Part shown: positions 499 to 60,947 of the stretch, piece by piece
Position numbering within the stretch: position 1 is the stretch's first letter
How the letters are laid out: every line of letters starts with the position of its first letter
Origin: a virus
Reading direction: 5' to 3' (one strand)
DNA length: 64,000 nt
IMG/VR virus record: IMGVR_UViG_3300044631_002636
Location: 1-64,000 of that record
Program-made: the position numbers and the translations under genes
The notes under the pieces: model-generated
Database searches by the model: none
Seen by the model: only the letters and a program-made list of their open reading frames with translations
Told to the model about the DNA's origin: nothing

Positions 499-3400
499 AT
501 GGCAATCTCTTCTCAAAAACTATTCGGATCTACAGATAAAGGTGGTGGTATTGTTTTAGCAAACAGAAGTAGTGCTAGTGCCATTGTTAGAAAATCACCT
601 CTGGTTGTAAAACAAAAAACAATAAAACTACGTAATCAAAAATCAAAAGAGTCTTTTAATTTTGATAAATTAATTCCAAACTTAAAGGCGATTGACAAGA
701 GCGTTAAGTTTATTGATAAAACATTCAAAAAGATTATAGATACAAACAGTAAAATCTTATCGGAAAAAGATAAACAATCTAAAGTTAAGAGAAGAAAAAC
801 AAGAGAAGATGATCTTGAAAAACAAACTAAAAAAGAACAACAAGAAGGAAAGGGAAGTGGAATTTCTATACCTAAACCAAGTTTCTTAGATAAAATTCTA
901 AACTTCTTTTTCTGGACAATTGCTGGAAATTTATTTTTCAAATTCTTTACAAAAGAAAATATAGATAAAGCAAATAAAGCTTTTCAAACAATAATTTCTA
1001 TTGGAAAGTTTATAGGAACAGTATTTGTTAAAACTGTAGAAGGATTAGTTAATTTTATCGATTTTAGTTATGAAAAATTTGATCAAATAAGAGGATTTAT
1101 CAAAAAAGTTGGTGGCGAAGGATCTCTTAAAATATTTGATCAATTCTCTGGAATGTTGAATAAGGTTATTAATGGCGCAATTATCCTTGCGATACTACTC
1201 TCAAAATCAAAAGGTTTTGGAGGCCGCGGCGGTAGAGGAAGAGGAGGTCGTGGAGGAAGAGGAGGTCGTGGTGCTGGCGGCGGTGGTGGTGATGATGTAG
1301 GTATTACAGGTAGAAGAGCAGGAAGAACTAGAGCAGTTGATCCAGCTGCTGCTAGAAAATATGCGGAAAGATATGGTAGAGATGCTGCAATAAAGAAATT
1401 TGGAAAAGATGGCGTAAGATCTCTTGGCGGAAAGTATGGAAGATCTTCAGCGACAAATTTTGCTAGAAAAGGAGCGGTCTCACTTCTTGGTAAAGGGGGA
1501 ACAAAAGCAGCACTAAAAATTGTTAGACCTTTTGTTAAAAGATTACCTCTGATTGGAGGTCTGATTGATTTCGGTCTCTCGGTCGCAATGGGAGAACCTT
1601 TAGGAAGAGCAGCATTTAAAGGAATTGGTGCTGCTATACTTGGTGCTATTGGTACTGGTTTTGGTGGTCCTATAGGAGCTGTTCTAGGAGGATTTGCTGG
1701 AGACTGGGCAGGTGGAAAACTCTATGATATTTTCTTTGGCAATAAGAAAAATAATGCAGGGACACAGGGAAGAGTTTATGGTGGATTGATTGCTGCTCAT
1801 GCAAATGGTGGCAATATTATTGGAGAAGGTGGAAGAACTCTAAAGAAGGATGATGAGCAAACTGCAAAATTACAAAAAAGAAGAAATATTAAATCCCCCC
1901 AAAAAGTTGAAGTTGGTAAAGATGTTGGAGGAATTAATAAGGTTCAAGAACTTTTTCCTAAGAGTCCAGACCAAAATAAGAAAAGTCCATTCGATGCATT
2001 ATTATCACTTTCATATACTCTAAAGAAAATTCCTTTTATTGGAAGAATAATGGGAGCTGCCATTGATCTAGCATTAGGTCAAAGCATTACAACAGGATTC
2101 TTTAAAGAAGTTTCTGATTCCTTAATAAATCTTTATGGGGTTTTAAAGGGATCAAAAACTATTAATAGATTATATTCAGATGTTTCTAGAGATATTACTA
2201 GAATGGAAGAAGGTGGGGAAGTAAAAAGTGTTACTGCAGGAAGATATTTAAGAATTGATCAGAATAAAGGTGTAACTACAGAGGAGATGAGAAACGCTAT
2301 TGAAAATAGCTTGAGACAATCAACATCAAGAGATGTTACAAAAGCAGTAAATATTATTAGAAGACAACTTGGTTTAAAGGAAATAGGAGAACCAACCCCA
2401 AAAGATGGAGATCCTCAAGGAAAAGAAGATGAATCTGCATCTTTAGATGTTGGTGCTCCTGGAGAGGGTGGAACTGTCACTGGTGGAAATGCAGATTTTT
2501 GGACATTAGTTGCAATCTCAAGAATGGAGGATGCAGATCCTCAGGGATCTGCTGACGTTGCCCAATCAATTTATAATAGAGTTGCGTCTGGAATATATGG
2601 TGGCAAAACCATTAAAGAAATAGTTCTAAGGCAAGGTCAATATGAACCAACTTGGAAATATCCAAAAAGAGGTAGAACTGGAGTTCCAAATCCAGAATGG
2701 CATAATATTAAAGATCTTGATACTGCTTCTGCCGCAACAGGAATTTCTAAGGGAGATTTGCAAAGAACAGCAGCTGCTTTAAAAAATTCAAAATATCAAG
2801 AAGAGGCAAGAAAATTTGTTGGGGGAAGAACTGATTTTATGGGAGGTGGTAATAAAAAAGGTGCTGAAGATGTTCAGAGAACAACCAATACACCCAATAA
2901 CTTTTTTGGGTGGTTTGTAGGACCTGCAGCTAAAGCTTATGGAGCTAAAAATCCAGGTGCAGCAAAAGCTCCACAACTTGGTGATATTGTTGTTATGGGA
3001 GGAGGTGCTGGTGGTGGAAAAACTGCTGCAGGTGGAAAAACAATCGTTGAAATTGGAAAATCTTTATTAAAACAAGGATTCAAAGTAGCAGAGCATCCAG
3101 ATTTTACAAAGCATGTTGGATATACTCCAGGAAAAGGATCAGTTTCTAGTGTTCATAAAGGAAGGGGACACTATGAAGGAAGAGCACTTGATGTTACTGA
3201 CTTTAGGGGATCATTAGAAGATTCTAAAGCAAGATATCGTTCTGTCTTAAATTCTTTGTATGAGAATAGAAAAGGACAAAACATTAATATGCTAATTCAT
3301 GATAGTTGGGGAGCAATGTATGGGGCGGGGGCTCCTAAAGAGGGTCCAGGAGGACATGGACACCCAACTCACATGCACGTTGAAACGACAGGTAAACAGG

Positions 3401-3522
3401 GTGGAGGTGTTATTAATACACCATCAAGGGATCCTAATAAATATAATAGCCTCCAGAAATACCAGAGTTATGGTGGAGGATCTTCAGTGTTAGCTGTCAA
3501 AACAGTGTATATTAAGACCTAA
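499..3522 (+). CDS. Tail/hub structural protein with two cell-wall hydrolase domains
   Basis: A 1,007-residue protein. The N-terminus is Lys/Glu-rich and coiled-coil-like (about 40-120), followed by hydrophobic stretches (about 130-150 and 220-235), an Arg-Gly-Gly-rich linker (about 240-265) and a Gly/Ala-rich hydrophobic segment (about 345-405). Residues 663-820 resemble SleB-type cell-wall hydrolases (ISRME..., IYNRVASG, GQYEP). Residues 850-965 resemble M15/VanY-type D-Ala-D-Ala peptidases: H891-x2-G-x-A-x-D898 matches the SxHxxGxAxD zinc motif, and H958-x-H960 follows. Together these would cut glycan and peptide during tail penetration. The position just before the hub gene suggests a tape-measure or hub-associated lysin, which is inference. 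Start ATG follows 4 nt after the previous stop. Confidence 0.8.
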   Translation: MAISSQKLFGSTDKGGGIVLANRSSASAIVRKSPLVVKQKTIKLRNQKSKESFNFDKLIPNLKAIDKSVKFIDKTFKKIIDTNSKILSEKDKQSKVKRRKTREDDLEKQTKKEQQEGKGSGISIPKPSFLDKILNFFFWTIAGNLFFKFFTKENIDKANKAFQTIISIGKFIGTVFVKTVEGLVNFIDFSYEKFDQIRGFIKKVGGEGSLKIFDQFSGMLNKVINGAIILAILLSKSKGFGGRGGRGRGGRGGRGGRGAGGGGGDDVGITGRRAGRTRAVDPAAARKYAERYGRDAAIKKFGKDGVRSLGGKYGRSSATNFARKGAVSLLGKGGTKAALKIVRPFVKRLPLIGGLIDFGLSVAMGEPLGRAAFKGIGAAILGAIGTGFGGPIGAVLGGFAGDWAGGKLYDIFFGNKKNNAGTQGRVYGGLIAAHANGGNIIGEGGRTLKKDDEQTAKLQKRRNIKSPQKVEVGKDVGGINKVQELFPKSPDQNKKSPFDALLSLSYTLKKIPFIGRIMGAAIDLALGQSITTGFFKEVSDSLINLYGVLKGSKTINRLYSDVSRDITRMEEGGEVKSVTAGRYLRIDQNKGVTTEEMRNAIENSLRQSTSRDVTKAVNIIRRQLGLKEIGEPTPKDGDPQGKEDESASLDVGAPGEGGTVTGGNADFWTLVAISRMEDADPQGSADVAQSIYNRVASGIYGGKTIKEIVLRQGQYEPTWKYPKRGRTGVPNPEWHNIKDLDTASAATGISKGDLQRTAAALKNSKYQEEARKFVGGRTDFMGGGNKKGAEDVQRTTNTPNNFFGWFVGPAAKAYGAKNPGAAKAPQLGDIVVMGGGAGGGKTAAGGKTIVEIGKSLLKQGFKVAEHPDFTKHVGYTPGKGSVSSVHKGRGHYEGRALDVTDFRGSLEDSKARYRSVLNSLYENRKGQNINMLIHDSWGAMYGAGAPKEGPGGHGHPTHMHVETTGKQGGGVINTPSRDPNKYNSLQKYQSYGGGSSVLAVKTVYIKT

Positions 3523-3524
3523 AA

Positions 3525-4859
3525 ATGGCAGAAAAGAAGTACGCAAATACGCCAGCTGAAACTGGCCAAGCAGTAATTAGTACATATACGATCACTCCGA
3601 ATGGTGGCGGAGAAGTAATCAAGGTTTCTAATAGTCAGAATCTTGGTGGATTTGCAGAATTGCAATATTTTGAAAGCATTTTCGATACAACAATAAGAGC
3701 AACATCAAAAATTGTTGATGTAAGTGGGCCCACTGGAGGAGACCTTAATATAGTTGATAAAGCAAAGTTAACCTCTGGAGAAAAAATAAAAATATCTTTG
3801 CAGGATGGTTATAAAAATAAATTAGATTTGGATTTAATTTTAAAAAATTATAATTATGTACAGGATACTAAAGGAGTTCTTGTTGATTTGAATATGTGGT
3901 CGCCAGACATGGTTGAAAATGAAGATACTAAGAAAAGAGTAATTAAGCAATATGAAGGATTAATATCAGATTCAGTAAGTGATATATTAAAAAATACTTT
4001 AGGCACATCTCTTAAAGTTGATGTTGATACTTCACTTGGAAATTTTACATTTCAAGGAAATAAAGCGACTGCAACTCCATACGATCAATGTTTGTGGTTA
4101 GCTTCACGTTGCGTTCCTGATTTCTCTGGAGCGAAGGGAAAACTTGCTGGATACTTATTGTATCAAACCTCAGATTCTATAAAGTTTAAATCTATTGATA
4201 AATTATTTTCAGAGTCTCCAAAAGCAAAATTCATTTATAATGAAAAAGTTGAAGAAGCAGCTCCTCCTGGATATGATGCAAAAATTATGGATTATCAATT
4301 CAATAAGAGTATGGATATTGAGAACATGATGAAAGGTGGAACTTTTTCTCAATCAGAATCTATAACAGTAGATCCATATAAAACAAAATACAAAGAAGCA
4401 TCTCCTTTTGATGCAATAACTCAAAATCTAAAAAAGAATAATGCTGGAAAAGATATTCCTATTATTGCAGAGGCATTAGACTTTGCTAATAGGACATTTA
4501 AAATTAATATGAGACCTTTAGATACTGGTCAATTAAAACCTATAGACAAAAAGAAATCTAAAGAGCAAAACCTATTACCTGATGAAATTATGCGTCAAGC
4601 AAGAGCGCGTTATAATCAATTGAATACTTCAAATTTAAAAATAGTAATCCCATTAAATGTGAAACTTCACGCTGGTGATATTATCGAAGTTACTTTCCCT
4701 GAAAACAAAGGAGGAAAGGCACCACTAAAACTAACTAAACGAAAAAGTGGCAGATACATGATTGAATCTTTAGCACATAAAATTGGACTATCAAAAATGA
4801 CAAATACTGCAAATACAACTGCATTAACATTAATTAGAGACACTGAAGGTAAAAAATAG
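3525..4859 (+). CDS. Baseplate hub protein, gp27-like
   Basis: A 444-residue protein starting 2 nt after the hydrolase gene. The N-terminal half has a beta-rich pattern (LGGFAELQYFESIFD, then KLTSGEKIKISL) of the kind found in gp27/GpD-type hub proteins that form the ring holding the spike. The C-terminus (KLHAGDIIEVTFPENKG, then GRYMIESLAHKI) resembles the closing hub domain of such proteins. The gp5-like OB-fold gene follows after only one small gene, which supports hub identity. No enzymatic motif is seen. The assignment rests on pattern and synteny; a structural comparison with T4 gp27 would settle it. Confidence 0.65.
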   Translation: MAEKKYANTPAETGQAVISTYTITPNGGGEVIKVSNSQNLGGFAELQYFESIFDTTIRATSKIVDVSGPTGGDLNIVDKAKLTSGEKIKISLQDGYKNKLDLDLILKNYNYVQDTKGVLVDLNMWSPDMVENEDTKKRVIKQYEGLISDSVSDILKNTLGTSLKVDVDTSLGNFTFQGNKATATPYDQCLWLASRCVPDFSGAKGKLAGYLLYQTSDSIKFKSIDKLFSESPKAKFIYNEKVEEAAPPGYDAKIMDYQFNKSMDIENMMKGGTFSQSESITVDPYKTKYKEASPFDAITQNLKKNNAGKDIPIIAEALDFANRTFKINMRPLDTGQLKPIDKKKSKEQNLLPDEIMRQARARYNQLNTSNLKIVIPLNVKLHAGDIIEVTFPENKGGKAPLKLTKRKSGRYMIESLAHKIGLSKMTNTANTTALTLIRDTEGKK

Positions 4860-5127: not shown

Positions 5128-7503
5128 ATGTATTTTCAGGTTGAAACATCTCAACAACAAGGAACTGCGACCAGCGGTGTCATTAGAGGCATCATTGGGA
5201 AGGAAGTAACTTGGTGTACCAATGAAGAAAGAAAAAAATGGACACAACCTGGAGTAATTACTGGGTTTGGTCAACGTTATAGAGTTCGTATCGTTGGAGT
5301 ACATGACCAAAAAGAAATACCTGATGAGAAATTGCCAGTATGTAGCGTCTTAATGCCAGTTACTGCTGGAAGTGGACATGCAAATGCTTCACAGACGGCA
5401 AATATTAAGGAAGGTACTTGGGTTAAACTTGAAGCTCAAGATGGTGCTGATGGTGCAGAATATCTTATTGTAGGTATTTTACCAAACGATTCTCAAAATC
5501 AAACTCTAGGTTCTGCTAACGATAATAAGGGATTTGATAATAAAACTGGATATGGAAAAGATCCATATAGGTCATCTGATGGAGTTGCCGAATTTGGAAT
5601 CAAAGGTGGTGGAGGAAAAACAGAATCAAATTCTGGGAGTGATACTGTAGAAAAAATTAAGATAGATGATGATCAAGAATATGATGGAAAAAAAGAAACA
5701 ACTTTACCGTCAAAAAGAAAATGTGGAGGTGATGAAACACAAGGTATTCAAATTTTTCTTCGTGATTTAATTCAAGATGTTGAAAGACTACAAGATCCTT
5801 TGAATTCTATATCAGCAAAACTTAGTGGAATTTCTGGAGGAATTGATGGACAAGCTGATGCTTTATGTCAAAAAGCATCTGATTATATTTCTGGTAAATT
5901 AAAAAATACTGTTGAAGAAATTAGAAAAAATACTTTAGATCTGATTCAGCAGAAAGTTAAAAAGGAATATGGTAAAGTCTGGGAAGAAGATAGACCTAAG
6001 TTAAAGAAAACTCAAGATAAAGTCTGGGAATTGATAAGTTGCCTTTTCAATAAATTTATCGATTCAATACCAAAAATTGTTAAAGGGATTGTATGTCCAC
6101 TATCTAAAAAACTAGTTAACGTTCCTTCATGTATTGCTCAAAATGTAGCTGGATCAATTCTTGGTCAGATTTTGGGACCTTTGATTGCTCTGATCAGTAA
6201 CCTACTACAACCTCTTTTAGCACTTCTGGGTATTGGTGGAGGAATTAGTGGTATTTTAGGTCTTATTCAAGCACTGGTTGGATTCTTCTTATGTGAAAAA
6301 GAAGAAGATTGTAAGAGTTTATTGACTTGGAGTTTGTGGGATGGCCCTGGAACGATAGCAGGAATGCAAAGTCAGTTTAATCTCACTGCAATATTTGGTG
6401 CCGCTGCTGGATTCGCAAGTCAAATTTCTGGTTTGATTGGTCAGGTTCAGAGTGCAGTTAGTAGTGCATCTGCTAATTTTGCCACAATGGTAAATATTGG
6501 AAGTGCAATATCATCTATAGTTTCTGGTGTTAAGGGATGTAGTGGTGATTCTAAAAAATGCGGACCACCTACAGTTGACTTTTTTGGACAACTTAAAAAT
6601 GCCACTGCAAATGCTGTAGTCAGTGCTGCTGGTGATTTATTAGCAGTTGATCTTGTAAATGCAGGAAGTACCTTTGGAATTAATAATTCGCCTGAAGTGA
6701 TGATTCAAGATACTTGCAGAAAAGGTTCTGGAGCAGCAGCAATCGCAGAGTTTGCACCTGCTGGAGGAGGCGCTCCTGCTGGAGGTGGCGCTCCTGCTGG
6801 AGGAGGCGTTCCTACTGGTCAGTTTGTTCTAACTAATGTTTTAATTGATACTCCTGGTGATGGATATCTGCCAAAGCCAGATGGAAGTAAAGGAGGAGAT
6901 GGGAGAGAGTGGGCAAAACCAAATCAAACCATTGTTAAAAGAGAAAATAAAGATTGGGAACGTCCTTTTTCTCCTGGACAAAAAATTATTTTAAAACCAG
7001 GAGATGAAATAACTCTTCCTGAGAATAGTAAAATAGACTTTCCAATTCCTTTATTTGGTGGAGTTACTACTGTTATTACTAAAGATATGACTACTGATGT
7101 TATGGAAATAACTGCACCTTTGCCAGTGGAACCAGAAGAAGTTCCACCTAAAGGAAATGCTGATACTTATGGCGTATTCTTAACAATATGTGATCCGAGA
7201 GTTGTAAGAAAAGGTTGGAACTATCAACCAACAGATAAAATAAAAATATATCCAGACAGTAATGGAGCGGAGTTTGAACCAGTGTTTGGTCCAAATGGAA
7301 CCTTAGAGGAGATTAGAGTCATAAATCCTGGAAATGGATTTGACTTTTGGCCAACGATATATGTTGAAAGTGACACTGGTTACAATGCAAAAATCCTCCC
7401 AAATTTTTGTGTAAATAGAGTAGACGAAGTGAAGGAAGTTCCAGCAGGAGTTCCAATCATACAAGTCGTAGATTGTGTTGGAAGACTTATCCCAGAGAAC
7501 TAA
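5128..7503 (+). CDS. Baseplate hub/spike protein, gp5-like OB-fold
   Basis: A 791-residue protein. Residues about 10-130 look like the gp5/VgrG OB-fold: a ring-forming beta barrel with YRVRIVGVHD, SVLMPVTAGSG, and EGTWVKLEAQDG followed by YLIVGILPND. The middle holds an amphipathic Lys-rich helix (about 255-310) and a long hydrophobic Gly/Ala/Leu region (about 330-520). An APAGGG tandem repeat sits near 546-560. The C-terminal 200 residues carry beta-rich modules (NAGFD/GDGYLPKP-type). I see no T4-lysozyme catalytic motif and no terminal beta-helix; the needle is encoded by the next gene. Likely role: central spike trimer of the baseplate. Confidence 0.75.
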   Translation: MYFQVETSQQQGTATSGVIRGIIGKEVTWCTNEERKKWTQPGVITGFGQRYRVRIVGVHDQKEIPDEKLPVCSVLMPVTAGSGHANASQTANIKEGTWVKLEAQDGADGAEYLIVGILPNDSQNQTLGSANDNKGFDNKTGYGKDPYRSSDGVAEFGIKGGGGKTESNSGSDTVEKIKIDDDQEYDGKKETTLPSKRKCGGDETQGIQIFLRDLIQDVERLQDPLNSISAKLSGISGGIDGQADALCQKASDYISGKLKNTVEEIRKNTLDLIQQKVKKEYGKVWEEDRPKLKKTQDKVWELISCLFNKFIDSIPKIVKGIVCPLSKKLVNVPSCIAQNVAGSILGQILGPLIALISNLLQPLLALLGIGGGISGILGLIQALVGFFLCEKEEDCKSLLTWSLWDGPGTIAGMQSQFNLTAIFGAAAGFASQISGLIGQVQSAVSSASANFATMVNIGSAISSIVSGVKGCSGDSKKCGPPTVDFFGQLKNATANAVVSAAGDLLAVDLVNAGSTFGINNSPEVMIQDTCRKGSGAAAIAEFAPAGGGAPAGGGAPAGGGVPTGQFVLTNVLIDTPGDGYLPKPDGSKGGDGREWAKPNQTIVKRENKDWERPFSPGQKIILKPGDEITLPENSKIDFPIPLFGGVTTVITKDMTTDVMEITAPLPVEPEEVPPKGNADTYGVFLTICDPRVVRKGWNYQPTDKIKIYPDSNGAEFEPVFGPNGTLEEIRVINPGNGFDFWPTIYVESDTGYNAKILPNFCVNRVDEVKEVPAGVPIIQVVDCVGRLIPEN

Positions 7504-10508: not shown

Positions 10509-10580
10509 GCCCTTGTAGCTCAGTGGTAGAGCAACGGTTTTGTAAACCGTTGGTCGCTGGTTCAAATCCAGTCGGGGGCT
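10509..10580 (+). tRNA. tRNA-Thr (UGU)
   Basis: Complete cloverleaf: acceptor GCCCTTG pairs with CGGGGGC with two G-U pairs, D-arm AGCTCAGTGGTAGAGC, anticodon stem ACGGT/ACCGT around loop TTTGTAA (anticodon TGT), T-arm with GGTTCAAATCC. CCA is not encoded. It reads ACA, a favoured codon in the AT-rich structural genes of this phage. Confidence 0.95.
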
Positions 10581-10584
10581 CTCT

Positions 10585-10666
10585 GTCGATGTGGCGGAAT
10601 TGGTATACGCGCTGGGTTTAGGTTCCAGTGGAGCAATCCTTGAAGGTTCAAGTCCTTTCATCGACA
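10585..10666 (+). tRNA. tRNA-Leu (UAG)
   Basis: Class II tRNA with acceptor GTCGATG/CATCGAC, D-arm TGGCGGAATTGGTATACGC, anticodon loop TTTAGGT (anticodon TAG), a short variable arm and T-arm GGTTCAAGTCC. CCA is not encoded. It reads CTA codons. It lies 4 nt after tRNA-Thr, so both are cut from one precursor. Confidence 0.93.
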
Positions 10667-10686
10667 TACATTAACATTAGAAGTAA

Positions 10687-43223: not shown

Positions 43224-43936
43224 AAAAGGTTGAAGTATTTTTACGTCATTGCTTTTACTCTAAGTTGCAAGAGCAACCATCAAGATCTAGACCATCTTGG
43301 TGGGATAAAGAAAAAGTATTTGAAAATTTTAAAAGAACTCTTGATCCAGAACTGATCAATTATACCATCATATATGATGAACATTATGGAAAAATTGAAG
43401 ATACATTTTTAAAAGATGAAGAAGGTTTAGTAAAAATTAACGAAGGTGGAGAAGCAAAAAGTTTCCTAAAAACCTTAGAATATGTTGATAGTCAAAACTT
43501 TGATGATAATACAATCATTTACTTTCTAGAAGATGATTATGTTCATAGAGATAATTGGACTCAAGTTTTAATTGAAGGATTTGATATTAAAGTGAATGAA
43601 AAGGACACGGTGAAATACATTACATTGTATGATCATGGGGACAAATACAGTGGAATGTATTCAAGTCTAATGTCCAGAGTTTTAATCACAGAAAATTCTC
43701 ATTGGAGACCTGTTCCTTCAACTACAAATACCTTCGCTACTACCTTTGGTAATTTAAAAGATGACTTAGATATCCATGTTAAATACTCAACGGATGTTGA
43801 ACCATCCAATGATCATATTAAATTTCTTGAATTAAGTCAAAAAGGAAAATATTTGGCATCATCTATACCTGGATATTCCACACATTGTCACTCAGAATTT
43901 CTATCACCTTGTATTGATTGGGAGAAGTACCTATGA
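43220..43936 (+). CDS. Glycosyltransferase-like protein (GT-A)
   Basis: A 238-residue protein. IIYFLEDDYVHRDNW at about 96-110 is an EDD/DxD-type metal and nucleotide-sugar site preceded by a hydrophobic strand, as in GT-A folds. TTNTFATTFGNLKDD and a C-terminal HCHSEFLSP segment follow. The family is not recognised precisely, but the operon context and DxD motif support glycosyl transfer. Confidence 0.6.
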   Translation: MKKVEVFLRHCFYSKLQEQPSRSRPSWWDKEKVFENFKRTLDPELINYTIIYDEHYGKIEDTFLKDEEGLVKINEGGEAKSFLKTLEYVDSQNFDDNTIIYFLEDDYVHRDNWTQVLIEGFDIKVNEKDTVKYITLYDHGDKYSGMYSSLMSRVLITENSHWRPVPSTTNTFATTFGNLKDDLDIHVKYSTDVEPSNDHIKFLELSQKGKYLASSIPGYSTHCHSEFLSPCIDWEKYL

Positions 43937-45474
43937 AAGTAAGTTTATATTCTATCGCAAAAAATGAAGAAAAGAATATTGAAAAGTTTCTAAAGAATGC
44001 GGAAAAATTTGATGAGGTTGTTGTAGTTGATACTGGTAGTATTGACAATACAGTTCAGTTGCTGAGGGATGCTGGAATTACTGTTTATGAGCATCCACAA
44101 TCTAGAGATGAGTTTGATTTTTCAGTAGCAAGAAATCAGGCACTTTCATATGCAACAAATGATTGGTGCTTGAGTTTAGATTTCAATGAAGATATTGACG
44201 ATTACTTTGCAGATGGTTTAGATCAGATTGAAGATCAATTCAGCGCATTTAAGCATCTTAGATTTGATGATAAAGACGGACAAATTTATCCATCAAATGA
44301 AGTTCACATTCGTTTTCATAGAAAAGAAAATTATAAGTGGGTTAATGCTGTTCATGAAACTCCAATTTTTGTAGCAACGGAAAACTTTCCAAAAGAAAAT
44401 GTAGTAGATGTCACTACGAAAATTACAAAGTTAATTAATAAAAGTGTAGATAAAGAACTTTTTTACCTTTCAATTTGTGAGAGAGAACTTAAGACTAATC
44501 CTACAAATTGGTATTACATTTGGTTTGTTTTCAATCATCATCTAACTGTAAAAAATTATGAACTAGCTTTAGATTATGGACAGCAATTCTTAACTTGCAC
44601 TCAAGCATATTTTAATAGTTTTAGAGTAAAAGTGTTTGTTGAATGTAGTAAAATATTTTTCCAGAATGGAGATATTCAAAGATCTGCAAATTATCTTATT
44701 CATTCAATGAGTGAGTCTTTGATGCTTGGGGAACCGTTTGCAATCGAATCTTTCCAAAATCTTTTTGGTTTCAGTAAAGAAATTGGAAATCTGGATCTTA
44801 CTGTATTCTCAACTGCTTTTATTCCAGAATTAAGAGAATCTTCAGCAAGAAGTGAGGCAATCAAAGAGTTGAGCAGAAAAAACTATGAGGATATTCATAG
44901 TTGCTGGAAAGGACACAAGAATTTTGCAAAGTGGTTGGTATCTACAATTAAACCTGAGGTTGTGGTCGATCTTGGTGTTGATCATGGATATTCTACATTT
45001 GTATTTGGAACACCTAAGGTTGGACAAAAAGTATATGGAGTTGATACCTTCGAAGGTGATCAATATGCGGGCGCAAGAGATTCTAACCAACTGTTTGAAT
45101 TTGTCACTCAGAAAGCGCGTGAGACTGGTCTAGATGACTCTGTAACCTTCATTAAAGGTACTTTTGATGATGTTGCTAAGACTTGGGATAAAAAGATTAA
45201 TCTGCTCCATATAGACGGGGATCATGCATATGAATCAGTAAAGAATGATTATGAGACATGGAGTAAATTCTTAGACGATGATGGTATTATTCTATTTCAT
45301 GATACTATGGTTGAAAATATTAACGGTAATGAATATGGGGTAAAAAGATTCTTTGAGGAATTAGACTTACCAAAAGTCAATTTTACTCATACATTTGGAT
45401 TGGGAATAGTTTCTAAGAATGAAAAATTAATTGAGTTCATTAAAACTAATATTAATCTTGATGCTCCATTATGA
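43933..45474 (+). CDS. Family-2 glycosyltransferase fused to a SAM methyltransferase
   Basis: A 513-residue fusion. The N-terminus (SLYSIAKNEEKNIEKFL, VVVVDTGSIDNTVQLL, WCLSLDFNEDI) is a GT2 fold in which the DxD position reads DFNED; residues about 170-310 are helical and TPR-like. From about 340 a class I methyltransferase of the Methyltransf_24 kind follows (VVVDLGVDHGYSTFVF, VYGVDTFEGD, INLLHIDGDHAYESV, GIILFHDTM). One chain could thus add and then methylate a sugar. The ATG at 43933 overlaps the previous stop (ATGA); an ATG at 43918 is less likely. Confidence 0.8.
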   Translation: MKVSLYSIAKNEEKNIEKFLKNAEKFDEVVVVDTGSIDNTVQLLRDAGITVYEHPQSRDEFDFSVARNQALSYATNDWCLSLDFNEDIDDYFADGLDQIEDQFSAFKHLRFDDKDGQIYPSNEVHIRFHRKENYKWVNAVHETPIFVATENFPKENVVDVTTKITKLINKSVDKELFYLSICERELKTNPTNWYYIWFVFNHHLTVKNYELALDYGQQFLTCTQAYFNSFRVKVFVECSKIFFQNGDIQRSANYLIHSMSESLMLGEPFAIESFQNLFGFSKEIGNLDLTVFSTAFIPELRESSARSEAIKELSRKNYEDIHSCWKGHKNFAKWLVSTIKPEVVVDLGVDHGYSTFVFGTPKVGQKVYGVDTFEGDQYAGARDSNQLFEFVTQKARETGLDDSVTFIKGTFDDVAKTWDKKINLLHIDGDHAYESVKNDYETWSKFLDDDGIILFHDTMVENINGNEYGVKRFFEELDLPKVNFTHTFGLGIVSKNEKLIEFIKTNINLDAPL

Positions 45475-45830
45475 AAATAACTATTCCAATTTCGGTTGGC
45501 GAACTTCTAGACAAAATAAGCATACTTCAAATAAAGTTTCAAAAAACCTCAAGTGAATATGTAGAAAAAGAATTAAATGAACTCATAAACATTGCAATAG
45601 CAAATAATGTTTATGAGATAAGTTTAATTTATAAACTAAAGAATGTAAACAAAAATCTTTGGGAGGTTGAGAATGAAGTAAGAAGATTTGAATCTTCTCA
45701 AAATTTTTGTGCTAGGTTCATTGAACTTGCACGTTCGGTCTATAAATTAAACGATGAAAGATCAAAGATTAAAAAAGAAATTAATAATTCATATAATTCA
45801 GAATTTCGTGAAATAAAAATATATCAATGA
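45471..45830 (+). CDS. DUF6165 family protein
   Basis: A 119-residue helical protein. ISVGELLDKISILQIK, LKNVNKNLWEVENEVRRFE and FIELARSVYKLNDERSKIKKEIN follow the DUF6165 pattern, found in bacterial polysaccharide-biosynthesis loci next to glycosyltransferases. Its biochemical role is unknown. Last gene of the glycan operon, overlapping the GT2-methyltransferase gene by 4 nt and ending in a palindrome and terminator. Confidence 0.75.
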   Translation: MKITIPISVGELLDKISILQIKFQKTSSEYVEKELNELINIAIANNVYEISLIYKLKNVNKNLWEVENEVRRFESSQNFCARFIELARSVYKLNDERSKIKKEINNSYNSEFREIKIYQ

Positions 45831-45884: not shown

Positions 45885-46010
45885 ATGTGGAGTTTCATCT
45901 TTCTCATGAAATTTTCAAACTTAGAACGTTTGATTTTTGTAGGATCTCTTATGCTACTAATGAATTGGGGAGTCCGTTTAACTTATATTATTCTTGATGG
46001 TCTGGTCTAA
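45885..46010 (+). CDS. Small membrane peptide
   Basis: A 41-residue frame whose middle (LERLIFVGSLMLLMNWGVRLTYIIL) is hydrophobic and could span a membrane once. Its TAA overlaps the ATG of the metallopeptidase gene (TAATG), which argues for real, coupled translation. An inner ATG at 45906 is possible. Function unknown. Confidence 0.45.
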   Translation: MWSFIFLMKFSNLERLIFVGSLMLLMNWGVRLTYIILDGLV

Positions 46011-46465
46011 TGCTTACATTGTATATCTCTGGACGCAACTATAGCAAGAAACGTTGTATTAACGCTACAGAGTGGTTTATTGCAAAGTATCTACCAAGAC
46101 ATAAACTTGAGATAGAAATCAATCATCGCGGATTGATGCGTGAAGGAGTTTATGGATGGTGTACGGTTATGGATTGCAATTACCGTCCTAGAGAGTTTGA
46201 AATTGAGATTCATAATCGTATGAATTCAGATCACTATCTCAAAACTTTGTTTCATGAACTATGGCATGTCTATCAGCATGTTATGGGCAATCTTAAAGAC
46301 AAACATGGTAAACGTCTTTGGAGAGGTATAGATTATACTGAAACTGAGTATGAAAATCAACCATGGGAAATTGAAGCAAGACAAATGGAAGAACTTTTGT
46401 ATATCGAATATCTTGGTTTAAATGACTTTGTGTATTCTTTTCCAAACCGCTTGACACACCCCTAA
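46010..46465 (+). CDS. HExxH zinc metallopeptidase-like protein
   Basis: A 151-residue protein. H82-E-L-W-H86 (HExxH) follows TLFHELWHVYQHV, and a distal acidic residue in PWEIEARQMEEL could be the third zinc ligand, as in gluzincin-like proteases. The N-terminal part is beta-rich (MDCNYRPREFEIEIHNRM). Without a SprT-type His the substrate class is uncertain; it may cut a host or virion protein. Downstream promoter TTGACA at 46451 overlaps its 3' end. Confidence 0.75.
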   Translation: MLTLYISGRNYSKKRCINATEWFIAKYLPRHKLEIEINHRGLMREGVYGWCTVMDCNYRPREFEIEIHNRMNSDHYLKTLFHELWHVYQHVMGNLKDKHGKRLWRGIDYTETEYENQPWEIEARQMEELLYIEYLGLNDFVYSFPNRLTHP

Positions 46466-46517: not shown

Positions 46518-49500
46518 ATGAAAAACATTTACTTTATCACTCCCAACTTTGAAATGCCTCATCTGATTATCGGATGCGGTGAGACTGAACAAGATCTTGT
46601 GAATGGTCGTCTTTCTATGGGGGATCACTCCAAAGCAAGGGCAATGCTTGAAGCAATTTCACCTGATGGTAATGGGGATTATAGAGTTATTGCTTTCTTT
46701 AAAGACTTTGATGGTCGTGATCACGATATCCATGCTTTTTTGAAGACTCTTCCATATTCAAAAAAGCATAAAGAAATTTTTGCTTTTCGTGGAGATCACT
46801 CATACACTGAAGAAATTATTGTAGATATGTGCTGTAAGCAGTTTTCTCTTGATGGGAAAATTCTTGATGAGAAAGTAAAGTTTACTCCTCGTCCTTATCA
46901 AGTGGAGTTTATTAAGAAAGCAAATAAGGAATATTGTGAGTTTCTTTTGTGGGCAAAGTGTCGCGCAGGTAAATCAGTGATGGTTCTTTCCCACATTCTA
47001 GATCGCAAGTTTAAGATTTCTTTGATTGTTTCTCGTAGCAAGTCTCCAGAACAATCTTGGAAAGAAGATTCTGAGAACTTTATAGACTTTGATCACTTTA
47101 GATATATCTGTCTTGCTGATAAAAATTGGAAAGAACAATTAGAATACTGGTCGCAAGTTGAAGGTATTCAAGTTATTCTTTGGTCTACAATTCAGGGTCT
47201 TGTGAATAAAATCCAAGACATTCATCAAGTAGATTTTCTTTGTTATGATGAATGCCATATCGGATATGGTGCTAAGCAGTGGAAAGAGATTCGTTCTAAG
47301 TTAAAGAACGTTCCTTGCATGTATGTGTCTGGAACTGCTTTCAAACTAGCATCTGATTTCTCTCAAGAGAACACTTTCATTTACACATACTTTGATGAGC
47401 AACTTGACGTTCAGCGCGGTGTTTTTCATCGTGGCAAAATGCATGTAATCCTCGCAAAGTATGAGTCTCAAGAGTATCGTAAAATCTTTGGTGACTTGCC
47501 TGATGCAATGAACAACATCTTTTCTATTAAAGATGGTAAGTTTGAACATGAGAGTCTGGTAATTGACTTTGTGCATAACTATCTTTCTACTCAGCGTCAC
47601 ATTCGTAATCCAAAAGATCGCCTTCTAAATGATACTCAACATGCATATTTGCTGATGCCTAGTGCAGAAGCATGTGTACTGATTGCAGACTATATTAAGG
47701 ACTATTCTCCTCTTGTTGCAATCGGTGAGTCTGGTGTTGATGCGGACATGATTCGCAAGCATGTTGCTGAGAATACTAAGACTATGATTATTACTCGTTG
47801 GGCAAATGTTCTTGGGGTAACTGTCAAAGATATTGATACGGTTATTAATTGCTCTGATGGCAAATCTACTGAGTTTTGGATTCAAGGTGCATCGCGTGGT
47901 GGGTCGGGTGATCATGATTACAATGTGATTGAATTTTCCCCCCAAAAGTGTCTAGAATCTATTCGTTTATCTTATTCTATTGCTTGCGATAGTAATCCAG
48001 AACTTTTGAACTATCAGTCAATTGAATTTGTTGCAATTTCAGAGTGGGCAGATAAGTTTGTTCATATGACTCAAGATCAAATCAATCAGATCACTGCATG
48101 TGATATTGCTGATACACGTTCTTTGATCGCAAGTGCGGTGTATCATATTGATATGGAGAAACTGAATGAATTTGAGATGAACTTGGATCTCAAATCTTCT
48201 ACTTCAGACCTCGCAAAAAGTGCTGAAGTGAATGATAATGGTGCAAATGGTAAGACAAATACAAAAGTAGAAGGTAAATCTCCTGCTGCTCATAATAAAG
48301 AACTCAGTCGCAAAAAAGAATCCATTAAGTCTATTTTGGAAGCAATTCCTCTGACAATTCTTTATGAAATGCGTAATGGTAAAAATGTAAATTCTGTTGA
48401 TAACGTTCTGAAGTCTGATTATTACATCAGTTCTACTGGTGATAATCAGAATATTATTGAACGTTGCCTTGATGACGGTCTTCTGAACTACAATCGTCTA
48501 ATGCATCGTATCTCTCAGGTATCGACAGATATTGCCCTTGCTATGAAGAATTCCTTCGCAGATACTCTGGATACACTTTCAGTCTCATCAAAAGAACATC
48601 GCAGCATTCCTTATGACATGTTCTCTGAAATGATCGGAGATTATGTTCAACCTCACCACAAAATTCTTGTGATTTGTGATCCTTCTGGGTCGCAAGTTGC
48701 CTATCTGATTGAGAAGTGTGGCGTCCCTGCCCAGAATATCTGGGTCTGGGAGTCTTGCCAAACTCACCTGTTTAGGGTAGAATGTGTGGATAGTGCAATC
48801 AACGTGGTCTCTGACCTGGAGGGTCTGATGGGTAAAATCCAATTTGATGGCGTAATTTCAAATCCTCCGTATTCAATCAATTCCCACAAAACAGGTAAGT
48901 CTGCTTATGGAGATTTTGCGGAACTTGGTTACAATCTGCTGAAAGAGGGTGGTTATGGTATCATGGTGCATCCTCCTGGTCTACGGAAACCTACCAATAA
49001 GCGTCACTATCTGATGCGTGATGTTCAGGTAGAAAAACTTTCTATTCATTCTTCTAAGGAAGGTGTTAAAGTTTTCAATGCTAACACTTCTTATGATTGG
49101 TATTCATACTGCAAAGAGGAGCGCACTGGTCCTACTAAAGTCCGCTTTCAAGCATCTGAAGAGTGGGTTGATGTAGACTTCCGTGATTATCCTTTTGTAC
49201 CAAATCACAGTCTAGATCTACTTCAAAAGTATCTGAATACTGATGCATCTATTCCCCGTCTGAATGCTGCTGTTGGACGCGCTCCACGTTTCAAAGATAA
49301 GAAAAATCCCAATAAGTTTGATCCTACTGTTTACTTTGAAGGTTGCTATGTAAATGTAAACAAAACTACTCCTAACGGAGAACCTGAGTTTGTTTATGAT
49401 AAGAAACCTCAACCATACTATCAGCAAAAGAAAGTCATCTTTAAGGAAGGTGGTAACTTTTACCCCTACTATGATGATGGTAAGTATGGTGTGACAGATA

Positions 49501-49676
49501 ATAGTATGTACATACTAGTTGACAGTGAGGAGGAGGGTCATGCTATTATGGAGTTTCTCAACTCTGAGGAGGCAAACACCTACCGCGAGGCATGTCAGTT
49601 GAGTGGTGGTTTCCGAACTGTTTGCTCTATGTTAAATGTCATCCCCAATCCTTACTATGTCAACAAAGCAAACTAA
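46518..49676 (+). CDS. SF2 helicase fused to N6-adenine DNA methyltransferase (single-chain R-M-like)
   Basis: A 1,052-residue protein. Residues 1-110 form a small domain (NIYFITPNFEMPHLIIGCGETE) that I cannot assign with confidence; it has a faint GIY-YIG/T5orf172 look. Residues about 120-520 are an SF2 helicase: RPYQVEFI, Walker A AKCRAGKS near 147, DECH box near 242, SGTA motif III, and a C-terminal RecA domain ending in QGASRGG. From about 690 a methyltransferase follows with degenerate motif I (VICDPSGSQ near 716) and N6-adenine motif IV ISNPPYS near 780. The C-terminal 160 residues may be the target-recognition domain. The order nuclease?-helicase-MTase-TRD resembles type ISP R-M enzymes. 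Confidence 0.8.
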   Translation: MKNIYFITPNFEMPHLIIGCGETEQDLVNGRLSMGDHSKARAMLEAISPDGNGDYRVIAFFKDFDGRDHDIHAFLKTLPYSKKHKEIFAFRGDHSYTEEIIVDMCCKQFSLDGKILDEKVKFTPRPYQVEFIKKANKEYCEFLLWAKCRAGKSVMVLSHILDRKFKISLIVSRSKSPEQSWKEDSENFIDFDHFRYICLADKNWKEQLEYWSQVEGIQVILWSTIQGLVNKIQDIHQVDFLCYDECHIGYGAKQWKEIRSKLKNVPCMYVSGTAFKLASDFSQENTFIYTYFDEQLDVQRGVFHRGKMHVILAKYESQEYRKIFGDLPDAMNNIFSIKDGKFEHESLVIDFVHNYLSTQRHIRNPKDRLLNDTQHAYLLMPSAEACVLIADYIKDYSPLVAIGESGVDADMIRKHVAENTKTMIITRWANVLGVTVKDIDTVINCSDGKSTEFWIQGASRGGSGDHDYNVIEFSPQKCLESIRLSYSIACDSNPELLNYQSIEFVAISEWADKFVHMTQDQINQITACDIADTRSLIASAVYHIDMEKLNEFEMNLDLKSSTSDLAKSAEVNDNGANGKTNTKVEGKSPAAHNKELSRKKESIKSILEAIPLTILYEMRNGKNVNSVDNVLKSDYYISSTGDNQNIIERCLDDGLLNYNRLMHRISQVSTDIALAMKNSFADTLDTLSVSSKEHRSIPYDMFSEMIGDYVQPHHKILVICDPSGSQVAYLIEKCGVPAQNIWVWESCQTHLFRVECVDSAINVVSDLEGLMGKIQFDGVISNPPYSINSHKTGKSAYGDFAELGYNLLKEGGYGIMVHPPGLRKPTNKRHYLMRDVQVEKLSIHSSKEGVKVFNANTSYDWYSYCKEERTGPTKVRFQASEEWVDVDFRDYPFVPNHSLDLLQKYLNTDASIPRLNAAVGRAPRFKDKKNPNKFDPTVYFEGCYVNVNKTTPNGEPEFVYDKKPQPYYQQKKVIFKEGGNFYPYYDDGKYGVTDNSMYILVDSEEEGHAIMEFLNSEEANTYREACQLSGGFRTVCSMLNVIPNPYYVNKAN

Positions 49677-50070
49677 GGTAAAAAACATTGGGTCTGATAT
49701 TGAAAGAACAAAAGATAGAATTGACAATACTGGAGAGGTTTTTACTCCTCCAGATCTTGTCAATGATATGCTTGATCAGATTCCATTGGATAAACTAAAA
49801 GATCCTAATGCTAAATTTTTGGATCTTTGTGCTGGATCTGGCAATTTTTCTATCAGACTCAAAGAACTTTTATGTCAATATCATGATGAACAGCATGTTT
49901 TGGATAACATGCTTTATGTGATAGAATTTCAAGAAGATAATCATAAAGAACTATGTGAGCGTCTGGGAGTTTCAATAACTCATCCTCACTATGTAAAAGC
50001 AGATGCTCTAACTTATCATTACCGCTTTGACGGAACACCTGCTGAGGTGACACTGGACCAGTTCTTCTAG
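49657..50070 (+). CDS. Truncated N6-adenine DNA methyltransferase half
   Basis: A 137-residue protein. GEVFTPPDLVNDMLDQI is motif X, FLDLCAGSGNFSIRL is motif I (SAM binding), YVIEFQEDN is motif II and VKADALTYH is motif III, in canonical order. The protein then ends where motif IV (NPPY/DPPY) would begin, so the catalytic motif is missing; a typical enzyme would be at least twice as long. Motif I here is intact whereas that of the preceding gene is degenerate, so the two could complement each other. ATG at 49657 overlaps the preceding gene by 20 nt; terminator follows directly. Confidence 0.8.
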   Translation: MSTKQTKVKNIGSDIERTKDRIDNTGEVFTPPDLVNDMLDQIPLDKLKDPNAKFLDLCAGSGNFSIRLKELLCQYHDEQHVLDNMLYVIEFQEDNHKELCERLGVSITHPHYVKADALTYHYRFDGTPAEVTLDQFF

Positions 50071-50078: not shown

Positions 50079-50102
50079 AGACCCTCTATGGGGGGTCTTT
50101 TT
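50079..50102 (+). terminator. Strong intrinsic terminator
   Basis: AGACCCTC and GGGGGTCT form an 8-bp stem (one T-G pair) with a 4-nt loop, followed by five T (50098-50102). It separates the methyltransferase unit from the GC-rich helicase. Confidence 0.85.
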
Positions 50103-50106
50103 GCCG

Positions 50107-50112
50107 TATAAT
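50107..50112 (+). promoter_or_regulatory. -10 box TATAAT before the GC-rich helicase
   Basis: Exact -10 box directly after the terminator T-run and 16 nt before the ATG at 50128. The -35 position lies in the terminator hairpin and shows no match, so it may depend on an activator. The leader would be very short. Confidence 0.5.
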
Positions 50113-50127
50113 AACTTTATTGAATTG

Positions 50128-51369
50128 ATGACCGCTGTGATTCCTCTCCTCCGCCCCCATCAAGAACGTGGCACCGCTGCTATGCTGCAGCACCGTAAGG
50201 GTCAGATCATCGTGCCCACTGGCGGTGGCAAGACTCTCAAGATGATTGTTGATACGCTACGCCTGCTTGAGTCCGAGACTCCTAAAACTATTGTAGTTGT
50301 TGCTCCGCGCATTCTGCTCGCTGAGCAACTGTCTAGTGAGTTTCTTGAGCATGTTACCAATGCTCATGTTTTCCACGTTCACAGTGGCGAGACTCATCAC
50401 GAGTCTTCTACTCGCCCTTATGTGATCCGTCAGTGGGTTGAGAGCAATTCTTCTGCTCACAAACTGATCTTTACGACCTATCATTCTCTGAACCGTCTGC
50501 AGGCAGCAGACATTCATGTTGATACCATTTACTTTGATGAGGCACATAACTCTGTTCAACGTCATTTCTTCCCTGCCACCGAGCATTTCTCTTCTGCTGC
50601 TGACCGCTGCTATTTCTTCACTGCTACTCCTAAGCATTCTGCCACTGTTTTCAAACCTGGCATGAATGATGCTGCTGTCTATGGTCAAGTGATCTGTAAA
50701 GTTCCTGCTCCTGAACTTGTGCAGGGTGGTTTCATTGTTCCTCCTAAGGTTGCAGTCAAGCAACTTCCCCTTGTTCCTAAGGGTATGCAAGTTGCTGAGG
50801 TTGATTCTGAGAATCTGCTGGAAACCATTGATGAGCATGGTGTTGGTAAGATCCTGATCTGTGCTAAGGCAGTCAAGCAAATTGTCAGTCTTGTCTCTGA
50901 GTCTGATTTCTGTCAGCAACTTGCTGATCGTGGGTATTCCTACATGTATATCAGTGCTAAGACTGGTGGTGTGATTGATGGTCAAAAGGTCAACCGTGAA
51001 GTCTTCTTTGACACTCTAAGTGCTTGGGGTAAGGATAACGACAAGAAGTTTGTTGTTCTTCACCACAGTATCCTCAGTGAAGGTATCAACGTGTCTGGTC
51101 TTGAGGCGGTGGTCTTCATGCGCTCTATGGATTACATTGGCATCAGTCAGACTATTGGGCGTGTGATCAGGTTGCATCATGATGACGCAAAGGGTCTTCG
51201 TGATGGTTCAATCCAACCTGGCAACCTGGATCAGTATTCCAAATCCTTTGGTCTGGTGTGCGTCCCCGTTTTCAACAAGGTCGGGATCAGCACCGCTAAG
51301 AAGGTTCAGGCAGTGGTGGATACCATTTTTGAGCGCGGTGAGGCGGCAGTTTCCGTGATCAAGCGTTGA
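50128..51369 (+). CDS. SF2 DEAH-box helicase
   Basis: A 413-residue helicase. PTGGGKT near 30-36 is Walker A, YFDEAH near 137 is the DEAH box, FFTATPKH is motif III; SEGINVSGLEAVVFM and IGISQTIGRVIRLHH are motifs V and VI. It resembles UvsW-like and type III/ISP R-M helicases. The ATG at 50128 is preferred over a TTG at 50101 that lies inside the promoter. Its third codon positions are clearly richer in G/C than those of its neighbours (frequent CTG, CTC, GTC), indicating different origin or selection for expression. Possibly replication/recombination helicase; a link with the neighbouring methyltransferases is possible. Confidence 0.88.
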   Translation: MTAVIPLLRPHQERGTAAMLQHRKGQIIVPTGGGKTLKMIVDTLRLLESETPKTIVVVAPRILLAEQLSSEFLEHVTNAHVFHVHSGETHHESSTRPYVIRQWVESNSSAHKLIFTTYHSLNRLQAADIHVDTIYFDEAHNSVQRHFFPATEHFSSAADRCYFFTATPKHSATVFKPGMNDAAVYGQVICKVPAPELVQGGFIVPPKVAVKQLPLVPKGMQVAEVDSENLLETIDEHGVGKILICAKAVKQIVSLVSESDFCQQLADRGYSYMYISAKTGGVIDGQKVNREVFFDTLSAWGKDNDKKFVVLHHSILSEGINVSGLEAVVFMRSMDYIGISQTIGRVIRLHHDDAKGLRDGSIQPGNLDQYSKSFGLVCVPVFNKVGISTAKKVQAVVDTIFERGEAAVSVIKR

Positions 51370-59735: not shown

Positions 59736-59922
59736 CAATTGCTTTTATATTGAACAAAAAAAGTATGGACTTTGGTACTCGGTTGACACTGATGGGAAGG
59801 GACTTATCACATCTCTCACTAAAGAGCAATGTATTTCAGCAACCCGTTTTTACCTTAAAGGGCGGCAGGAAGGTTTCTCTGAATCCAAAACTTATGAGGG
59901 GAAAGTTGGAGGAAAACTATGA
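59647..59922 (+). CDS. Conserved cyanophage-type hypothetical protein
   Basis: A 91-residue protein. LIDNCFYIEQKKYGLWYSVDTDGKGLITSLTKEQCISATRFYLKGRQEGF forms a compact beta-alpha pattern known to me from small cyanophage proteins without function. The N-terminal 25 residues (TTETTTQENSKELEQ) overlap the previous gene; a start inside 59725 would avoid overlap but cut the conserved region. ATGA overlap with the dehydratase gene. Confidence 0.6.
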   Translation: MTTETTTQENSKELEQLGSEDLKQKGELIDNCFYIEQKKYGLWYSVDTDGKGLITSLTKEQCISATRFYLKGRQEGFSESKTYEGKVGGKL

Positions 59923-60947
59923 GTAAACGTGTATTGGTAACTGGCGGTGCTGGTTTTATTGCCCATCATCTTATTGGTCAGATTCTAAAACTTACTGATT
60001 GGGAAGTTGTTAGTCTTGATCGTTTGGATTATAGTGGAAATCTAAACAGGCTTCATGATTTGCTTATGACGAATCATGATGAAGAAACACGTAAACGGGT
60101 AAAGATTGTCTTTCATGATCTGAAAGCAGAAATCAATCCACTGGTAAAAGCAAATATTGGAGAAGTTAATTACATTCTTCATCTTGCCGCAGGATCTCAT
60201 GTTGATCGCAGCATTCTTTATCCTATGGAGTTTGTTCTTGATAATGTTGTGGGAACCTGCAATATTCTTGAATATGCAAGAACTCAAGACAATCTTGAGA
60301 GATTTGTATATTTCAGTACTGATGAAGTATTTGGACCAGCACCAGATGGTATTAAGTTTGAAGAAAATGATAGGTACAATTCAACAAATCCTTATAGTGC
60401 AACAAAAGCAGGTGGAGAAGAATTAGCAGTAGCGTATCACAACACATATAATCTACCCGTCTATATTACCCATACAATGAATGTATTTGGGCAGAGACAA
60501 CATCCTGAAAAATATATTCCAATGTGTATTCGTAAGGTGCGTGATGGTGAAGTTGTCACTATTCATAGCGACTCTACAAAAACAGTACCTGGATCAAGGC
60601 ATTATATTCATGCAGAGGATGTTGCGTCTGCTATTATGTTTCTAATAAACAAAACTGAAATTACACAAAATGTTTGGGGAGGTGCAAAGTGCCCCAAGTT
60701 TAATATTGTTGGATCTGAGGAACTTAATAATCTTGAACTTGCGCGTATTATTGCTGAAGTTCAAGATAAAGAACTTAAGTATCAATTTGTAGATTTTCAT
60801 TCTTCACGTCCTGGTCATGATTTGCGTTATGCACTTGATGGTGATAAAATGAAAGTTATGGGGTGGGTTCCTAAAAAATCAGTTAAAGAACGCATTTCAG
60901 AAGTTGTAAACTGGACTCTTAAAAACGATAGGTGGATTGAATTATGA
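59919..60947 (+). CDS. NDP-sugar 4,6-dehydratase (RmlB-like extended SDR)
   Basis: A 342-residue extended short-chain dehydrogenase. T8-G-G-A-G-F-I14 binds NAD; LHLAAGSHVDRSI is the second NAD contact; STDEVFG near 133 carries the Thr-Asp-Glu of 4,6-dehydratases; YSATKAG near 159 gives the catalytic Tyr and Lys. It converts an NDP-glucose (dTDP- or similar) to the 4-keto-6-deoxy sugar, the entry to deoxysugars such as rhamnose. It could feed the glycan operon at 36.7-45.8 kb with donor sugars. Coupled to neighbours by 4-nt overlaps. Confidence 0.88.
   Translation: MSKRVLVTGGAGFIAHHLIGQILKLTDWEVVSLDRLDYSGNLNRLHDLLMTNHDEETRKRVKIVFHDLKAEINPLVKANIGEVNYILHLAAGSHVDRSILYPMEFVLDNVVGTCNILEYARTQDNLERFVYFSTDEVFGPAPDGIKFEENDRYNSTNPYSATKAGGEELAVAYHNTYNLPVYITHTMNVFGQRQHPEKYIPMCIRKVRDGEVVTIHSDSTKTVPGSRHYIHAEDVASAIMFLINKTEITQNVWGGAKCPKFNIVGSEELNNLELARIIAEVQDKELKYQFVDFHSSRPGHDLRYALDGDKMKVMGWVPKKSVKERISEVVNWTLKNDRWIEL

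Follow-up and report, generated by a model that had tools for sequence, protein, structure and literature searches.

Under the usual naming of methyltransferase motifs, motifs X and I to III make up the SAM side and motif IV is catalytic. M.TaqI, CamA and M.BseCI are complete single chains with a canonical motif I, and in beta-class enzymes NPPY comes first and the SAM part last. Type I restriction-modification (R-M) systems combine a constant methyl-donor part, an exchangeable specificity part (HsdS) and an SF2 motor, motifs I and IV both being held by HsdM. In type ISP enzymes such as LlaGI and LlaBIII, an Mrr-family nuclease, an SF2 motor, a gamma N6-adenine methyltransferase and a target domain follow one another in one chain, which translocates and cleaves upon collision. 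The working mode proposed below is modelled on these enzymes as presented in part of PMC4666363. Natural methyltransferases of two polypeptides are found among the C5-cytosine enzymes, the small subunit of M.AquI and M.EcoHK31I holding motif IX or IX-X (passages of PMC3404938). Adenine methylases of jumbo phages, some of them circularly permuted, are described in PMC7824862, of which section 3.4.7 describes no two-gene split, shared small subunit or helicase fusion, unlike the proteins reported here. Among open-licence titles and abstracts, no description of an adenine methyltransferase cut between motifs III and IV was found, which does not imply its absence from print.

The window, that is the whole stretch of 64,000 nucleotides analysed here, comes from a virus record of 64,785 bases. 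Most likely it represents a fragment of a T4-like cyanophage, since its proteins include the tail lysozyme, tail fibre and UvsW-like helicase families and since the one stretch tested (499-4859) gave weak DNA matches to cyanophages. The original prediction placed in this phage a single-chain helicase-adenine methyltransferase of 1,052 residues, composed in order of a small domain at the N-terminus, an SF2 motor with a DECH box, an NPPY methyltransferase and a putative target domain. The open reading frame, the motifs and their order were confirmed (Table 1), Pfam ResIII and Eco57I being matched above cut-off, as was the phage setting; the family also occurs in 10 phage records. Overlooked, by contrast, were the small overlapping gene for MtA and the loss of GxG from motif I of the large chain, P0001. 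Taken together, the sequence comparisons below lead us to read P0001 and MtA as one phage-encoded N6-adenine R-M-like system with a split methyltransferase, in which MtA is constant and the other halves, motors and nucleases are exchanged; we put the probability of this reading at about 0.55.

Table 1. Position of the large chain, MtA and other features in the window.
Feature	Position	Strand	Extent in protein	Remarks
Two tRNA genes, Thr(tgt) and Leu(tag)	10509-10667	+		
Methyltransf_24 domain fused to glycosyltransferase family 2	43918-45830	+		DUF6165/DUF4254 protein next
SprT-like metallopeptidase-like protein	46010-46465	+		Just 5' of the P0001 gene; PHROG 10499; Pfam SprT-like below cut-off
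P0001, large chain	46518-49676	+	1052 aa	ORF exact, no internal stop
GIY-YIG-like (T5orf172-type) N-terminal domain	46518-46862	+	Residues 1-115	
SF2 helicase-like motor	46875-48032	+	Residues ~120-505	Ends approximate; motif I, DECH, SGTA, atypical motif VI
Motor motif VI, Q...R.GSGD	47883-47912		Residues 456-465	
Degenerate motif X-like SIPYDMFSEM, motif I CDPSGSQ, motif II WVWES	48603-48755	+	Residues 696-746	
Catalytic motif IV, NPPY	48861-48872	+	Residues 782-785	
TaqI-like target recognition region	49170-49673	+	Residues ~885-1052	Start approximate; TaqI_C below cut-off; structure match
MtA	49636-50070	+	144 aa	Overlaps 3' end of the P0001 gene; motifs X-III, stops before motif IV
MtA motif X, GEVFTP	49732-49749	+		
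MtA motif I, FLDLCAGSGNF	49816-49848	+		
MtA motif II, YVIEFQEDN	49915-49941	+		
MtA motif III	49999-50031	+		
UvsW-like SF2 helicase	50101-51369	+		Immediately 3' of MtA
Nucleotide-sugar epimerase-like gene	59919-60947			

P0001 consists, in order, of a GIY-YIG-like domain, an SF2 motor, a TaqI-like methyltransferase fold with a degenerate SAM motif and a target domain. Its residues 3-706 were matched by PHROG 22930 (2e-201), and the family was recovered from 70 IMG/VR loci as well as the phage records, the cyanophages S-CAM7, MA01, MA10, ME01, MC09 and ACG-2014f carrying relatives of 36-38% identity. Searched as a single sequence against solved structures, P0001 gave a chance match only (0.1), and NCBIfam returned nothing useful. 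The layout of the relatives varies between a single chain of about 1040-1100 aa, two genes of about 700 and 330 aa, and two genes of about 598 and 468 aa. The single chain is thus not the unit kept by this family, many relatives having it in two genes.

The N-terminal domain had been described as not of the Mrr type, in agreement with the Pfam search (no Mrr match in P0001 at E ≤ 1), and a relation to GIY-YIG had been offered as a guess, which gained ground for the family and stayed weak for P0001 itself. When 46 members were scanned individually, MUG113 was matched by 8 of 46 (best 1.9e-7), T5orf172 by 8 of 46 (best 6.8e-7) and GIY-YIG by 3 of 46 (0.028), and the T5orf172 cut-off of 20 bits was reached by three relatives (L090, 30.2 bits; L075, 26.0 bits; L173, 21.5 bits); P0001's own N-terminus matched none of these three Pfam families. 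Following division of the members by eye into groups of 38 and 8, hhalign of the KIG-type group of 8 (L090 and others, with L090 and L075 the two of the 8 scanned individually) against the other 38 gave P 1e-4 at a probability of just 58%. A structure was predicted for residues 1-127 (pLDDT 81.5, pTM 0.75). Foldseek returned no match to this model at E ≤ 0.001; comparison with 573 chains placed the GIY-YIG nucleases HIGLE and Slx1 in the top three positions (Z 5.6, 5.3 and 5.0, the next at 4.0), with rmsd 3.5-3.7 over 95-103 aligned residues, such Z values below 8 being weak. The best match of the N-terminal profile in the PDB was at 0.31.

GIY-YIG nucleases use two Tyr, an Arg and a metal-binding Glu. 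In the alignment of 46 members, G21, D68 and E86 were invariant and Y5, T23 and D36 nearly so, Y5 being kept in at least 90% of the aligned domains. The second Tyr is absent, and all 46 members have Asp (Asp68) at the candidate metal position. The domain is taken as GIY-YIG-like, of the T5orf172 type, in which Asp stands in for the metal Glu, and as a putative nuclease.

In the motor, motif I (AKCRAGKS, residues 146-153), YDECH (243-247), SGTA (271-274) and a motif VI starting at Q456 were recognized, and ResIII matched residues 122-273 at 1.1e-6. The usual SF2 motif VI has a second Arg. This residue was missing from nine of nine aligned chains, which carry an invariant Ser (S463) instead, so that the motor may be inactive or operate in an unusual way. 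The helicase part also matched the UvsW-type PHROG 16 (1e-13), a UvsW-like gene adjoins, and Slx1 ranks near the top in the structural comparison of the N-terminal domain, as would suit a UvsW/Slx1-like repair or recombination helicase-nuclease acting on branched phage DNA, the methyltransferase part serving as a targeting fold. Against this reading, which we consider highly improbable, stand the conservation of NPPY and the target domain, their exchange between isolates along with other R-M-like genes, and MtA, which stays constant and keeps its SAM motif intact.

The C-terminal part of P0001 was matched by Pfam Eco57I (residues 771-823, 1.1e-5) and, below cut-off, by TaqI_C (0.0086). An AlphaFold model of residues 700-1052 (pLDDT 87.8, pTM 0.83) shows a whole M.TaqI-like domain that includes the segment with the degenerate motifs, here called the DPxG segment after its motif I (DPSG in P0001). 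The model matches M.TaqI over its full length (Z 21.4, rmsd 4.0, 329 aligned), which indicates that P0001 keeps a complete-looking fold with a degenerate SAM motif. P0001 resembles M.TaqI, CamA and M.BseCI in its Rossmann fold, NPPY and C-terminal target domain and differs from them in that the canonical motifs X-III lie in another protein. Assessed as a gamma-class enzyme, the chain thus has NPPY, the Rossmann fold and the target domain, and a canonical SAM motif I is absent from it.

The predicted resemblance to type ISP enzymes held for the order of domains and for the fold, the C-terminal model matching LlaGI at Z 15.2 and LlaBIII at Z 14.6, and an SF2 ATPase is present in the same chain (ResIII and motifs I-III, with an atypical motif VI). 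It did not extend to membership, which was ruled out by the lack of an Mrr nuclease and of a complete methyltransferase, as judged by motif I, in one chain. Unlike LlaGI and LlaBIII, the P0001 family is GIY-YIG-like at its N-terminus, has a degenerate SAM motif and nearly always an adjacent MtA, is often spread over two or three genes and is phage-borne.

A profile of 46 halves matched the solved structures of CamA, M.TaqI, type I HsdM, BsaXI and BrxX, the best stretch always running from profile position 49 onward; the DPxG segment was therefore never aligned to a solved structure. GxG was replaced by DPxG in all 56 such halves listed, 26 of them fused to a P0001-type helicase and 30 separate. 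DPxG and VWE are conserved across halves, which is not random decay. If the chain were instead a complete enzyme by itself, of the type ISP kind and with DPxG as an unusual SAM site, MtA being accessory or regulatory or serving other halves only, this would account for this conservation and for the full-length match to M.TaqI; the uniform loss of GxG and the unaligned segment speak against it. We regard it as the likeliest of the alternatives and nevertheless as unlikely.

MtA carries the motifs that are degenerate in the large chain. It matched PHROG 4376, a family of no stated function, at 1e-52 and Pfam N6_Mtase weakly; judged from relatives, its likely start is a later in-frame ATG at 49657. 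Its residues D63, G67, G69 and E97 were shared by all 37 members in the alignment. In profile searches of the PDB, MtA and the NPPY half covered successive parts of the same proteins: residues 25-82 versus 138-298 of CamA, 145-247 versus 247-400 of StySJI M, and 357-423 versus 513-628 of BsaXI. Similarly, the PADLOC mad2 model was covered by MtA at 269-351 and by the large chain at 346-405. By these alignments MtA and the large chain of the family together cover the conserved methyltransferase motifs, P0001 retaining a degenerate second copy of X-III. The original view of a single-chain enzyme fell short here, given the degenerate motif I, the presence of motifs X-III in the overlapping MtA and the frequent division of the chain in relatives; P0001 is probably not self-sufficient. 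MtA was found in 56 phage records (43 at ≥80% coverage) and in 532 IMG/VR stretches. Only three relatives were recovered from the genome-contig collection, all on MAG contigs, so no bacterial parent was found.

Linkage between MtA and halves carrying NPPx was assessed in 73 distinct MtA genes chosen by MtA similarity alone, a set drawn partly from the best 80 of the 532 IMG/VR stretches and therefore leaning to close relatives. An NPPx half lay within 1.5 kb of 65 of them, as opposed to 8 of 42 control ORFs from the same loci; of the remaining eight, five were close to an edge and three had a half by a looser rule. Conversely, all 36 phage records with an NPPx half also carried MtA.

After entries with identical last 330 bases had been counted once, 130 distinct MtA-domain entries remained, 107 with an adjacent partner, 8 inside chains of at least 300 aa and 15 without a partner by the 1.5-kb rule. 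Among these 15, a half lay slightly farther off in L004, L028, L154 and L156, was detected by profile without the exact motif in L173 and, in L029, L037 and L039, was present elsewhere in the record at a distance of about 100 kb; it was cut in L201 and L204, and L019, L133, L180 and L203 end too near the gene. L033 has MtA and no half within its 23-kb fragment. The adjacent partners comprised, besides the fused (26) and separate (30) halves with DPxG, 24 that begin at motif IV, 20 others and 7 that fit a crude GxG pattern.

The partners beginning at motif IV have no residues able to hold SAM motifs. In one subfamily, some halves beside MtA have the DPxG segment and others lack it, yet the two sorts share 70-94% identity from motif IV onward, which further argues against a self-sufficient chain. 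In its favour, some partners with a near-canonical motif I (L013, L017, L018 and L020) also adjoin MtA; under the split reading these would fit a series from intact through degenerate to lost, following recruitment of MtA. Two halves followed by one MtA were found in L057, L059, L061 and L064. Single chains of about 415 aa from Aeromonas phages hold both halves, with NPPY at around residue 9 and the MtA-like part C-terminal. This permuted order is that of beta-class enzymes. It resembles the order of the methylases in the part of PMC7824862 cited above. In S-SKS1, the protein 5' of MtA begins with an FYIGQT region that passes, without an intervening helicase, into a methyltransferase half (NYPY).

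Exchange of modules was followed in near-identical cyanophages. In S-CAM7 isolates, MtA is 93-95.5% identical, the halves just 24-25%, and neighbour genes differ at the same kind of place; in ACG-2014f isolates C24 and C90 the corresponding values are 98.5% and 26.5%. By these comparisons, MtA is constant while the NPPx half and nearby nuclease and helicase genes get replaced. Leaving out four RefSeq duplicates, 24 ACG-2014f isolates were MtA-positive: 2 with GIY/helicase and half, 13 with a PD-(D/E)XK-like gene (by eye; Pfam Mrr_cat just 0.12), half and helicase, 5 that have a different nuclease-like gene (by eye) but lack a half nearby, and 4 in which MtA likewise has no half nearby (two inspected, two inferred from the match pattern). 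A 301-aa half starting at motif IV, about 100 kb from MtA, was present in 24 of 24 MtA-positive and 0 of 17 MtA-negative isolates, and the whole genomes of 4 of these 17, searched with half and MtA profiles, gave no match. A tree built from 9 of the 41 isolates placed the four MtA-negative ones in a single clade (support 1.000); the co-occurrence may hence reflect a single joint loss or gain and was not counted as independent evidence.

These loci also bear on whether DNA is cut at all. If the system were for modification only, the split methyltransferase would shield phage DNA from host restriction, the motor would give access to sites and the nuclease-like domain would be inactive or DNA-binding. 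The missing Arg of motif VI and the altered GIY-YIG residues are compatible with this, as are several MtA loci that have the half alone without a P0001-type helicase and the second-locus halves of ACG-2014f, which adjoin ordinary adenine methylase genes. However, D68, E86 and Y5 are still conserved, and other locus versions carry nuclease-like genes together with a helicase, which points to restriction. This reading, too, we judge improbable.

In the split-enzyme reading that we prefer, MtA would bind SAM through motifs X and I-III, and the large chain, in physical complex with it, would contribute catalysis through its NPPY loop and recognition through its target domain, both linked to the SF2 motor and the GIY-YIG-like domain. 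Since AlphaFold folds the DPxG segment into the whole domain, MtA would have to displace this segment or bind otherwise. NPPx/target halves, motors and nucleases are swapped around a constant MtA, and one MtA can be accompanied by two tandem halves or by halves elsewhere in the genome. The sequences themselves show the architecture, the linkage of the genes, the complementary motifs and the exchange of modules. Such an R-M-like machine would work like a type ISP enzyme without being one: we infer that the phage probably marks its own DNA by methylation, in one sequence context or in several, and cuts unmarked host or rival DNA after translocation. Counting against the split reading are the whole-domain fold, the conserved DPxG and VWE, the near-canonical partners, the atypical motif VI and GIY-YIG residues, the absence of a GIY-YIG Pfam match from P0001's own N-terminus, and L033.

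Like M.AquI and M.EcoHK31I, the proposed enzyme would be one methyltransferase made of two polypeptides; unlike them, it would be an N6-adenine enzyme, divided after motif III and before motif IV, whose SAM half is shared and whose catalytic halves can be exchanged. With type I systems it shares a constant methyl-donor part, an exchangeable specificity part and an SF2 motor, but its motif IV belongs to the specificity half. More tentatively, at somewhat less than even odds, aquatic phages may keep one standing SAM half-enzyme that powers any catalytic/target half nearby or elsewhere, and change or add specificities of methylation (and restriction) by swapping or stacking halves. If correct, the split would divide an adenine methyltransferase into SAM binding on one side and catalysis and target choice on the other, giving a function to the small gene family PHROG 4376, with its relatives in 532 IMG/VR stretches. 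It would also offer phages a plug-in route to changed DNA specificity, provide a natural split m6A writer usable as a tool, and predict, for T4-like cyanophages, which of the genes annotated as hypothetical belong to restriction-modification systems, a prediction testable in culture.

Some further genes were noted beside MtA and its halves. In L005, a 484-kb uncultured phage, a 256-aa protein (6003-6773), PD-(D/E)XK-like by eye and without a Pfam match, separates the NPPY half from the SAM half. Small PD-(D/E)XK-like proteins, similar by eye, occur in L036 (6479-7081), L028 (2655-3266) and L031 (5448-6011), where they accompany another helicase and an NPPx half near MtA, resembling a dispersed version of the same machine. 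A gene similar to the UvsW-like one of the window is also found right after MtA in L007 and a few genes later in L006.
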